Positions 9,157-17,750 of a stretch of 37,117 bases of DNA are shown here, one piece after another. The position numbers and the translations under genes are program-made. Under the pieces are notes generated by a model, which was given only the letters and a program-made list of their open reading frames with translations, was not told where the DNA came from and searched no databases. Each line of letters begins with the position of its first letter. The stretch's first letter is position 1. Location: assembly GCF_020253525.1 (NCBI RefSeq), contig NZ_JADCBK010000132.1:1-37117 (forward strand), in the 5' to 3' direction. The stretch is from Aquidulcibacter sp. (GTDB lineage Bacteria > Pseudomonadota > Alphaproteobacteria > Caulobacterales > Aquidulcibacteraceae).

Positions 9157-9250
9157 TGTCATCCCCGCCGGAGCGTCAGCGGAGAGCGGGGATCCCGTGG
9201 GACTTTGCGGCAGGAGACCTGGGACTCGGCTAACGCCGTCCGGGATGAAA
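9157..9250. repeat. Palindromic MITE/REP-like element, copy A
   Basis: About 94 bp bounded by inverted ends TGTCATCCC and GGGATGAAA (ideal GGGATGACA). The left half holds a CCCCGC...GCGGGG hairpin. The right half holds a second hairpin of the form TCCCGGA...TCCGGGA with inner CGGC/GCCG, here imperfect. Copy B (9641-9731) has the same layout and near-identical blocks. It lies just upstream of the GIY-YIG gene. The sequence is degenerate relative to copy B, so A is probably older. Confidence 0.75.
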
Positions 9251-9322
9251 TCAATTTATGGATAGACATTTATTGTTTTATATTTAAGGTAATTATTCTG
9301 ATTTCCGGTTTGATATAGAAAG

Positions 9323-9634
9323 ATGGATGCATCTGAGCCAGAGGACAGATTTTTCGTTTACCTCGTGACTAATCGCCCACGAGGTGTTTTCTATGTCGGG
9401 ATTACAAGCGATCTCGTGAAGCGGGTTTGGCAACATCGAACCCATCAACTCAAACGAAGTTTCACAGATAGGTACAATCTAGAGCGGCTGGTTTGGGTCG
9501 AACAATACCGCGATGTAAATGTTGCAATTCAGCGGGAAAAATTGATCAAGCGCTGGCGTCGAGAATGGAAAATCCAATTAGTGGAAAAGAGCAACCCCGA
9601 GTGGCGAGACTTGTGGGAAGAAATTTCCTTTTAG
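9323..9634 (+). CDS. GIY-YIG nuclease-family protein
   Basis: A 103-residue single-domain protein. The GIY-YIG core is visible as VYLV (Tyr13) and FYVG (Tyr24-Gly26), followed by Arg34 in LVKRVWQHR, the metal-binding Glu72 in QREKLIKRW, and a C-terminal NPEWRDLW segment, the layout of stand-alone family members (COG2827 type). All expected catalytic positions are present. It lies alone in an island flanked by copies of a palindromic element. The gene and the 70 bp before it are visibly richer in A+T than the neighbours, which suggests acquisition by transfer. The ribosome site is weak (AGAAAG). The biological target is unknown; a link to the flanking repeats is only a hypothesis. Confidence 0.88.
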   Translation: MDASEPEDRFFVYLVTNRPRGVFYVGITSDLVKRVWQHRTHQLKRSFTDRYNLERLVWVEQYRDVNVAIQREKLIKRWRREWKIQLVEKSNPEWRDLWEEISF

Positions 9635-9640
9635 AATGCC

Positions 9641-9731
9641 TGTCATCCCCGCCGAAGCGAAGCGGAGAGCGGGGACCTTGGTGAAGTTACGGCAGGAGGT
9701 CCCGGATCGGCTGACGCCGTCCGGGATGACA
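9641..9731. repeat. Palindromic MITE/REP-like element, copy B
   Basis: A 91-bp element beginning 6 bp after the GIY-YIG stop codon. Perfect 9-bp inverted ends are TGTCATCCC (9641-9649) and GGGATGACA (9723-9731). The left hairpin uses CCCCGC/GCGGGG. The right hairpin (9700-9726) pairs TCCCGGA with TCCGGGA and CGGC with GCCG around TGAC, about 11 bp of stem. It has the same orientation as copy A, so the nuclease gene lies between direct copies. Confidence 0.8.
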
Positions 9732-9750
9732 TCGCACTTAAAATGGGGCC

Positions 9751-9795
9751 TTGCGGCACAAGGTCCCGGATCGGCTGACGCCGTCCGGGATGACA
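9751..9795. repeat. Palindromic element, partial copy C (right half only)
   Basis: Matches the right half of copy B from the GCGGCA block to the GGGATGACA end (9787-9795), including the full hairpin at 9764-9790. The left half is missing. It lies 20 bp after copy B in the same orientation, as expected from a partial tandem duplication or a truncated insertion. Confidence 0.75.
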
Positions 9796-9810: not shown

Positions 9811-9844
9811 TTACCCCACAGACCCCGCTCGGTCGCGGCCTTGA
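9811..9844. repeat. 34-bp dispersed repeat, copy 1
   Basis: Identical over 34 bp to 11694-11727. It begins TTACCCCACAGACCCC and ends CGCGGCCTTGA. It lies 16 bp after the partial copy C, so several repeat families cluster here. The second copy forms the 3' end of the aldo/keto reductase gene. Confidence 0.85.
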
Positions 9845-9978
9845 TTGGGTCACTTGAACCGTCCTTTACCCCAGAGGCAGCGTCGCGTGTGTGCATCACG
9901 TCACGCGGCAAAACGCTATCAATTGTCAGTCACAGGACTGCATGTGCCTCTTTGCGCATCGGATCGAACCAAGGATGC

Positions 9979-11693: not shown

Positions 11694-11727
11694 TTACCCC
11701 ACAGACCCCGCTCGGTCGCGGCCTTGA
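11694..11727. repeat. 34-bp dispersed repeat, copy 2 (inside the aldo/keto reductase 3' end)
   Basis: Identical to 9811-9844. On the minus strand it supplies the stop codon and the last ten codons or so of the aldo/keto reductase (tail VQGRDRAGSVG), and it begins 5 bp after the stop of the convergent DUF1566 gene. Confidence 0.85.
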
Positions 11728-12779
11728 ACGGGGAACATCCAGCCGGGATATTCCGATGGCAGGGCGGAGACTTTGTCCAAAACAGCCAGGTCTTCAGCGG
11801 TCAGTTTCACGTCCACGGCTTTGAGATTATCGGTCAATTGGTCGTCGGTCTTGGCCCCGATAATGACACTGGTCACCCAAGGGCGGTGCAAGAGCCAAGC
11901 AAGGGCAATTTGGGCGACGCTGACGCCATGGGCGGCGGCAATCGGCTCCATCGCTTCGACGCAATCATAAACCCGGTCCTTATTGACGGGCGGGAAGTCA
12001 AAGCTGGCGCGGCGGGCATTGTTGGGCCCTGCTTGATCGCGCTTGAACTTGCCGGACAAAAGGCCGCCAGCGAGTGGACTCCATGGCAAGATGGCAAGGC
12101 CTTCGCTTTGCGCCAGGGGCACGACTTCGCGTTCGAGGTCGCGCGAGGCCAAAGTGTAATACATTTGCATGGAGTCAAAGCGGGCATAATTCTTCCGCTC
12201 GGCAATGCCATTGGCTTTGGCGGTTTCCCACGCGGCGCGGTTGCACAGGCCGATATAGCGCACCCGGCCAGAGCGCACGATGTCATTCAACGTGTCCATC
12301 ACTTCATCCAGCGAGGTGAGGGGGTCGTAGCCGTGGATTTGATAGAGATCGACATGATCCATATTGAGGCGCTTTAAGCTTGCATCTATGGCGTCAAACA
12401 AATGCTTGCGTGAGAGGCCAGAGATATTGCGTGCGGTTTGGCGGCGGGTCGCTTCAGCTTGCGCATGGGGGCTGGCGTCAGGCGGCAAAAGGTCCTGCAC
12501 GCGGCCATGGGCTTTGGTGGCAATGACAATTTCGTCACGCCGCAGGCCCTTCTCGCGAATGGCATGGCCCAACATCTGCTCTGACAGGCCATTGGCATAG
12601 ACGTCGGCGGTGTCAAAGAAATTCACGCCTGCATCAAAGGCTTGGCGCACGAGACTGCTAGCAACCTCCTGATCTTGGCCGCCAATCACGGTCCAAAATC
12701 CATCCCCGCCGAAGGTCATGGTGCCGAGGCAGATTTCAGAAACAACAAGGCCGGTCCGGCCCAAGGTCTTATATTTCAT
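11694..12779 (-). CDS. Aldo/keto reductase
   Basis: A 361-residue NAD(P)H-dependent TIM-barrel oxidoreductase. The catalytic tetrad is present: Asp56 in FFDTADVYANG, Tyr61, Lys89 in IATKAHG and His149 in YQIHGYDP. The start MKYKTLGRTGLVVSEICLGTMTFGG is typical, as are the late LAWLLHRPWVTSVIIGAKTDDQL cofactor motifs. Substrate unknown; it resembles the broad YajO/IolS/Gfo-like group. The C-terminal dozen residues are encoded by a dispersed 34-bp repeat, so the natural end of the protein was probably altered by insertion. Divergent from the HI0933 flavoprotein, with about 100 bp between the two starts. Confidence 0.92.
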   Translation of the reverse strand: MKYKTLGRTGLVVSEICLGTMTFGGDGFWTVIGGQDQEVASSLVRQAFDAGVNFFDTADVYANGLSEQMLGHAIREKGLRRDEIVIATKAHGRVQDLLPPDASPHAQAEATRRQTARNISGLSRKHLFDAIDASLKRLNMDHVDLYQIHGYDPLTSLDEVMDTLNDIVRSGRVRYIGLCNRAAWETAKANGIAERKNYARFDSMQMYYTLASRDLEREVVPLAQSEGLAILPWSPLAGGLLSGKFKRDQAGPNNARRASFDFPPVNKDRVYDCVEAMEPIAAAHGVSVAQIALAWLLHRPWVTSVIIGAKTDDQLTDNLKAVDVKLTAEDLAVLDKVSALPSEYPGWMFPVQGRDRAGSVG

Positions 12780-17339: not shown

Positions 17340-17750
17340 AAGCGTCTCCTAATTTCTAGCCTCAGTGTGAATCGCGTTGGTAAACGAGACGTTAGGACGG
17401 AAAAAAATTACAGCATCCGGTGTTTTTTCTCTGTGGAGCGATTGCATTCTTGGTGCTGAGGTCCGTCCCAAGCTTGTTATTCCCGCCGGAGCGTGAGCGG
17501 CATCCGCCACCAGTTGGGCTATTCCGCTTCCCTGTTTACGGGGAAGCTGTCCCGAAGGGACTGAAGCGGTGCTTGCTTTCTTTCACTGAGACCTGGCTTG
17601 GTGATCGCCGCGCTTCACCAAAGCGGGTCTAGACGAAAATAGGCTTTCAATCACCATGATGATTTACGCTGCCTCCCACATGAAGCGGGCAGGTAAGCAC
17701 ACTGGGCGAAGTGGCTGGACCTGATTGGGGTGAGCCTTTAGCGTGAGGGG
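17340..17750. other. Non-coding gap with repeat remnants and structured segment
   Basis: About 410 bp with no convincing gene. It includes the upstream region of the unrecognised gene, a degenerate left-half copy of the palindromic element (17476-17500, three mismatches to copy A), and a foldable segment (17524-17569). In that segment CCGCTTC/GAAGCGG outer arms compete with the inner hairpins GCTTCCC/GGGAAGC and GTCCC/GGGAC. Further on, TTGGTGA and TCACCAA form another inverted repeat near 17600. It looks like an accumulation of repeat debris rather than a gene. Confidence 0.5.

Follow-up and report, generated by a model that had tools for sequence, protein, structure and literature searches.

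A GIY-YIG nuclease gene between CGTC/TGTC-tagged repeats as the probable partner enzyme of a repeat family thought to have none

Known repeat systems and the window locus

One enzyme paired with one palindrome is the signature behind the RAYT/REP hypothesis, and RAYTs provide GTAG REPs with the kind of dedicated enzyme that CGTC REPs are thought to lack. For the CGTC superfamily, in which the tag is often TGTC and head-to-head dimers occur mostly in alphaproteobacteria, Di Nocera et al. 2013 (PMC3733652) wrote that the repeats "lack a dedicated transposase" or "seem lacking a dedicated transposase", and proposed an extinct enzyme or the shared use of many transposases. The four families described there have an 8-9 bp stem and a 4-5 nt loop, and dRS3 of Neisseria (ATTCCC-N8-GGGAAT) was placed in CGTC-1 (PMC3733652).

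Here, we analyzed a window of 37,117 nucleotides from Aquidulcibacter sp., which is part of a 3.49-Mb, 167-contig assembly (G000). The following features, all on the forward strand, are needed to follow the comparison:

9157..9248, +, upstream CGTC/TGTC-tagged REP dimer, REPIN-like and slightly decayed (92 bp, 83% identity to the downstream copy)
9249..9322, +, A+T-rich leader that separates the nuclease gene from the upstream dimer (base composition)
9323..9634, +, GIY-YIG nuclease gene (103 aa, stop codon TAG at 9632-9634, PF01541 with E 5e-12)
9641..9731, +, downstream REP dimer (91 bp, perfect 9-bp inverted ends TGTCATCCC...GGGATGACA)
9751..9795, +, half copy comprising one tagged hairpin and part of the spacer (93% identity over 45 bp)
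17470..17500, +, remnant of one REP arm (TGTTATTCCCGCCGGAGCGTGAGCGG; 84% over 31 nt)

We consider it likely that the gene and its flanking dimers constitute a small mobile unit, a "CGTC REPtron", in which one family of CGTC/TGTC-tagged hairpins has an Slx1-like GIY-YIG nuclease as its dedicated partner. The nuclease probably fills the place of the partner enzyme that a large repeat family had seemed to lack.

The original prediction had described a 91-bp element with perfect inverted ends 6 bp past the nuclease stop codon, a slightly decayed copy in the same orientation about 70 bp upstream (the distance to the ATG is ~74 bp), a third half-copy, a remnant at 17476, and an AT-rich gene and leader in a GC-rich surround (G+C is 43-47% versus 54-60%), and it was right in every detail that we checked. 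The upstream dimer ends in GATGAAAT where GATGACAT would be expected, and the half copy is missing from the sister genome G023 (compared locus L061). When folded as single-stranded DNA, the downstream dimer was better than 200 of 200 shuffles (z -3.6), and this was not so for the decayed upstream dimer. No sigma-70-like site was found in the leader. The nuclease subfamily has only this one gene in the genome.

The full element is not one palindrome. It is a REPIN-like, head-to-head pair of two different tagged hairpins with the tags outward, which read TGTC-ATCCCCGC..GCGGGGA and TCCCGGAT..GTCCGGGAT-GACA in the downstream dimer; on the other strand, the second hairpin reads TGTC-ATCCCGGAC...GTCCGGGA. 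The downstream dimer (9641-9731) carries TGTC-ATCCC at each of its outer ends, the upstream dimer (9157-9248) at its left end. The superfamily is recognised by an unpaired tag (CGTC, TGTC or CCTC) and a stem after it that opens with A-T; the window repeats satisfy this criterion, and they share with the published CGTC REPs (PMC3733652) the head-to-head dimers and the alphaproteobacterial predominance. Their outer stems are 7-8 bp, with loops of about 15 nt or containing an inner hairpin, so that they fail the stem and loop criterion of families 1-4; because of the longer loops, we call them a variant, not members of those families. Short loops do occur in the repeats of other homologues, such as CGTCATCCTCGGGCTTGACCCGAGGATCCA.

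The genome-wide copy count proposed in the original prediction gave ~46 matches to the 91-mer, mostly full dimers, which satisfies the criterion of dispersed head-to-head dimers. At this copy number, two full copies less than 100 bp from one gene are not expected by chance. The pattern YGTCATYCCSG had 114 matches in the genome and its reversed control had 1. A single fixed tag pattern undercounts, as YGTC patterns miss the GCTC-tagged elements of one clade. In the window's genome, many REP dimers lie less than 200 bp from contig ends (e.g., C24:8, C58:10, C23:46 and C133:83), inside longer mosaic repeats (CACCAAAGCGCGTC..., TTTGGTGGAAACGCTGTTTCACC). Since the assembly breaks at such places, the copy number is probably underestimated.

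Association of the gene with tagged hairpins

A profile of homologues was used to collect 80 loci in named genomes, which are the best-scoring matches, nearest to the window protein, and not a random sample. The homologues come from alpha-, beta- and gammaproteobacteria, plus records labelled as other phyla; some phylum labels belong to short metagenome-bin contigs and could be wrong. In three Sphingobium plasmids (AP027312, AP027319 and AP027322), homologues are annotated as "excinuclease ABC subunit C", which is misleading for a single-domain family.

We then scored CGTC-type REPs, defined for this purpose as a tag plus a stem of 8 bp or longer, no further than 300 bp from the gene. Among the 71 homologues with full flanks in this best-scoring set, 64 had a tagged hairpin within that distance and 42 had tagged hairpins on both sides. 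The corresponding counts for control ORFs in the same loci were 103/788 (either side) and 9/788 (both sides), giving a Fisher p of 3e-43 for two-sided flanking. The tag also emerged de novo, with GTCATCC and GTCATTC as the top enriched 7-mers near homologues. Hairpins sought without regard to the tag occurred at 4.3/kb in the first 100 bp from the genes versus 0.85/kb beyond 2 kb. The outermost tags of the unit face outward in 52 of 80 cases (p 6e-14), and in 14 of 80 the gene lies between two direct copies of the whole dimer ("+- G +-"). For about 10% of the homologues, the automatic test detected no tagged hairpin inside the 300-bp limit, in some cases owing to a variant tag or stem.

Some paralogues depart from this pattern. 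One deep pair, L178 (G016) and L188 (G130), has a single TGTCACCCCAGCC... hairpin about 118 bp past the gene. No tagged hairpin was seen at the paralogues L179, L182, L187, L189, L191 and L192, which may be a repeat-free subfamily.

The original prediction had left room for a chance association in a repeat hotspot, in which genes in busy intergenic regions simply collect REPs. Intergenic spacers in this genus do turn over quickly and carry other repeats too. However, when the controls were restricted to 147 ORFs bordered both upstream and downstream by 100 bp or more of intergenic sequence, 22 had a tagged hairpin on either side and 5 on both, and the two-sided excess of the homologues remained (42/71; p 3e-20). 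A hotspot would also leave unexplained why repeat types follow the enzyme phylogeny or differ between paralogues of the same genome. The association is not due to chance, and we regard the hotspot account as barely conceivable.

Nor is the association a general property of GIY-YIG or REP-related genes of the same order: CGTC REPs flanked none of 15 genes for UvrC, a housekeeping GIY-YIG protein, and none of 20 genes for RAYT-type Y1 HUH proteins (PF01797). No PF01797 gene was found in eight sampled genomes of the genus, the window's genome included. Two memberships could thus be rejected: the locus is not a RAYT/REPIN system, as the gene belongs to PF01541 and the 20 PF01797 genes have no CGTC flanks, and the repeats are not GTAG REPs, as the tag is TGTC/CGTC. 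The nuclease family fits the vacancy for a dedicated transposase of CGTC REPs.

Two outcomes were to count against the original prediction, namely no enrichment near homologues and elements common in genomes without the gene. The first is clearly false given the counts above. The second holds weakly, as elements do occur in gene-less genomes of the order, with a median of 38 pattern hits versus 59 in genomes with the gene, and some gene-less genomes have many (169 in G059 and 149 in G017). Such elements would be expected if dependants outlive the enzyme, and other models predict them as well. At the level of the order, gene and element co-occur (p 3.6e-6). This figure takes no account of kinship, and the co-occurrence serves as support only; RAYT presence shows a weak correlation there too.

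Enzyme, repeat type and mobility of the unit

The repeats on the two sides of a gene resemble each other closely. Of 80 genes that have a repeat both upstream and downstream, 74 show agreement between the two at 13 or more of their first 14 positions, whereas shuffling of partners under the same upstream/downstream match gave a mean of 7 and a maximum of 18 of 80. Protein similarity predicts repeat similarity (Mantel r 0.28, none of 2000 permutations as high): a repeat is common to both members in 81% of protein pairs at least 70% identical and in 6-9% of those at 40-60% identity. Within single genomes, only 1 of 16 paralogue pairs has a common repeat. For example, G121 has five paralogues with different repeats (CGTCATCCTCGGGCTTGACCCGAGGATCG; CGTCATTCCGGGG...; CGTCATCCCGGAA...GGGACCGC; CGTCATCCTAGGCCTTGTGCCTAGGATCCA; and GCTCATCCCCGCGGAGGCGGGGACCCA), and dimers of the first three are also dispersed through the ~600 kb of this genome that was sampled. 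Spacers of REPINs were also compared with the coding unit for signs of deletion derivatives, and one suggestive match only was found (ACCGCCCAGAACACC, type C of G121). When mapped onto a tree of 125 enzymes, the repeat tags change 35 times, compared with 63.9 for shuffled labels (0/200); many forks of this tree are unresolved, and the result supports clustering only. Judged by these comparisons, the repeat type follows the enzyme, not the genome. Specificity between enzyme and hairpin is supported by the one-enzyme/one-repeat pairing inside genomes and by the clustering of repeat types on the enzyme tree, and recognition of the repeat by its sequence is an inference from this co-variation.

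Presence and absence of the unit were compared at syntenic sites. The gene is patchy, being found in four of eight sampled genomes of the genus, and it can be present in up to six paralogues. Within the genus, it occupies the window locus only in G000 and G023. Four other genomes (G003, G072, G048 and G013) have the Hsp70-like and MarR neighbours with a short spacer between them and neither the gene nor a REP of the window type, and two of these (G048 and G013) have the nuclease gene at other loci. The G023 copy (L061:1501-1809) contains an in-frame TGA at codon 94 or 95, directly behind W94 and about nine residues before the end, showing that copies decay, a sign of a non-essential gene.

Similar cases were found elsewhere. 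Azospirillum lipoferum 4B has, between sufB and sufC, a dimer-gene-dimer unit some half a kilobase long, and A. ramasamyi, A. oryzae and strain B510, which are 95-98% identical around the site, have no unit there. In Shinella, the unit is present on three plasmids and absent from the sites of relatives. The original prediction had suggested that the unit may move as a composite and had proposed a search for empty sites. Such sites exist at the window locus, in Azospirillum and in Shinella, and the presence or absence of the whole repeat-gene-repeat unit supports composite movement, as far as genome comparison can establish it.

Single dimers were also followed at six REPIN sites of the window's genome by a concatenated-flank search in the genus, and three sites were aligned. 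At the first, the dimer is present in G000 and G013 and absent from G003, G062 and G150; G023 and G072 have other sequence instead. No target-site duplication or exact junction could be read at the three aligned sites, in Azospirillum or in Shinella, because the intergenic spacers are too diverged and their turnover is high.

Two other repeats were noticed near the window locus. A 39-bp direct repeat (95%) at 9811-9849 and 11694-11732 brackets the MarR gene and the next, DUF1566-like gene; as G023 lacks both genes and keeps one 39-bp repeat, this looks like a deletion between the copies. In addition, the empty site of G003 (L173) has a different palindromic repeat (GGGGAAGCTGTCCCGAAGGGACTGAAG...), which also occurs beside the REP remnant of the window at about 17520-17570.

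These data bear on two other explanations. The GIY-YIG gene could be a free-standing, homing-type endonuclease that cleaves REPs spread by something else, inserts into or between them and tracks its target sequence. A target-tracking nuclease would also show co-variation of enzyme and repeat, the "+- G +-" geometry looks like entry of a gene into a pre-existing REP site, and elements are present in gene-less genomes. However, the empty sites at the window locus and at sufB-sufC have no REP of that type, so that repeats and gene appear together; a homing gene interrupts its own site, leaving the carrier allele uncut, whereas intact repeats remain here on both sides; no other dedicated mobiliser of CGTC REPs is known; and RAYT-type genes are not flanked by them. 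We regard homing as rather unlikely, though it deserves to be kept in mind.

Alternatively, the protein might be an Slx1-like repair nuclease of the host that resolves REP hairpins or cruciforms, with the flanking REPs serving as terminators or autoregulatory sites and no mobilisation involved. Its nearest folds, Slx1 and HIGLE, do process branched DNA, and REPs often lie behind genes and can work as RNA elements (PMC3733652). A housekeeping enzyme would nevertheless be expected to be inherited vertically at a fixed locus, not to be patchy, in differing loci of sister species, in up to six paralogues and in decay. Regulation would need neither two-sided repeats nor an exact match to a paralogue-specific repeat. 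This possibility seems quite improbable to us, and the reading of the locus as a mobile unit with a dedicated nuclease is preferred.

The nuclease, a possible mechanism and its meaning

The window protein is almost wholly one GIY-YIG domain of the Slx1/UPF0213-like, single-domain kind. Across alignments, Y13, Y24, H38, E72 and N91 are invariant and R34 is near-invariant (window protein numbering), all being catalytic-type residues; with the conserved Tyr, Tyr, Arg, His and Glu and the GIY-YIG fold, the superfamily criterion is met. Among solved structures, the best sequence matches are the UPF0213 proteins 1zg2 (E 2.5e-8) and 1ywl (E 2.9e-5), followed by UvrC (0.05) and HIGLE (0.11). An AlphaFold2 model (pLDDT 93) has Slx1, HIGLE and UPF0213 as its closest fold neighbours (Z 6.8-7.3), then I-TevI (5.8) and UvrC (5.3), and it aligns over nearly its full length with Slx1 and with HIGLE, a plant resolvase of the Slx1 lineage. 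These Z values are modest (below 8) and indicate fold kinship only. By sequence and predicted fold, the protein is a stand-alone minimal domain nearest to Slx1 and UPF0213 and meets the criterion of this group. Dunin-Horkawicz et al. (PMC1564403) assigned 1zg2 and 1ywl to the bacterial Slx1 family and proposed the absence of a C-terminal Asn for the Slx1 lineage. N91 is invariant in the window family, and its correspondence to the Asn of UvrC and homing endonucleases is not resolved. Branched DNA is the substrate of Slx1-lineage enzymes, and HIGLE needs no partner to cut it (PMC9071465). A reading of the gene as part of a defence system was rejected, as there was no PADLOC match.

The system behaves as a REPtron would, with an enzyme of a different class at its core. 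It shares with RAYT REPtrons a small enzyme gene flanked by tagged palindromes, one enzyme per repeat family, dispersed head-to-head dimers, several pairs per genome and a patchy distribution. It differs in having a GIY-YIG hydrolase instead of a Y1 HUH transposase, CGTC/TGTC instead of GTAG, and flanking dimers that are often in direct orientation around the gene. Other known systems are more distant. The UPF0213 proteins 1zg2 and 1ywl are likewise stand-alone minimal domains, but their structures have no known function, and no repeat partner was found reported for them in open-access papers. The I-TevI-type homing endonucleases share the GIY-YIG catalytic domain and mobile behaviour; the window protein, in contrast, has no NUMOD or other DNA-binding domain and no intron, its own palindromes flank the gene, and its fold is closer to Slx1. 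MITEs and their parent transposons resemble the system in that dispersed non-coding elements share their ends with a coding unit, whereas here the ends are tagged hairpins, there is no DDE transposase and no target-site duplication was resolved. A search of the open-access literature, bioRxiv not included, found no paper linking GIY-YIG genes to REPs, which is weak evidence and does not exclude an earlier report.

Comparison across genomes demonstrates the pairing of gene and repeat and the mobility of the unit, with mostly two-sided and tight pairing, specificity that extends to paralogues of the same genome, presence or absence of the unit, and dispersed copies in the same genome. Activity of the enzyme itself on the hairpins is inferred without biochemistry, and cleavage, cut site and repair route have not been shown. 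The suggestion of the original prediction that the nuclease processes or mobilises the hairpins is borne out as regards the specificity of pairing (74/80 genes; 1/16 paralogue pairs), and catalysis on the hairpin is no more than inferred.

GIY-YIG enzymes are hydrolases that form no covalent DNA intermediate, and spread of the repeats would accordingly depend on the host to repair or recombine the cut DNA, in place of HUH-type strand transfer. A likely course of events can be inferred. The tagged hairpins would extrude in single-stranded or supercoiled DNA; the enzyme, a fold relative of the structure-selective Slx1, would recognise hairpin and tag and incise near the base of the stem (YGTC/AT); and host repair would then copy or insert the liberated or template DNA elsewhere. 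Dispersed REP dimers would be non-autonomous derivatives that need the enzyme in the way that GTAG REPs are believed to need RAYTs.

Homologues also occur beside previously described or other repeats. One homologue, in a Neisseria gonorrhoeae chromosome that is recorded as a plasmid, lies among 16 dRS3 matches, a single case that is illustrative only since Neisseria genomes are rich in dRS3. The plasmid collection holds two such 2.17-Mb records of this species (NZ_CP119140.1 and NZ_CP119142.1), which, judged by size, are chromosomes filed as plasmids. In Planktothrix, TGTCATTCTGAGTGAAACGAAGAATCTC repeats surround the homologue.

On balance, we lean towards a more general hypothesis: CGTC REPs, dRS3 of Neisseria included, may be mobilised by Slx1-like GIY-YIG nucleases, a second and independently evolved class of REP-mobilising enzymes that would act by hydrolytic hairpin cleavage and host repair and sustain tens to hundreds of dependent REPs per genome. 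Few bacterial repeats are as widespread as CGTC REPs, and the question of their origin has stood since 2013. As one small enzyme family matches them type by type in alpha-, beta- and gammaproteobacteria, a direct test is possible with a protein of ~100 residues and a hairpin of ~30 nt. If the hypothesis is true, many genes now labelled "GIY-YIG nuclease family protein" or "excinuclease ABC subunit C" might be reinterpreted as REP partners. If the enzyme moves REPs, this would be a new role for GIY-YIG nucleases and would give REP biology a second, convergent mobility system.
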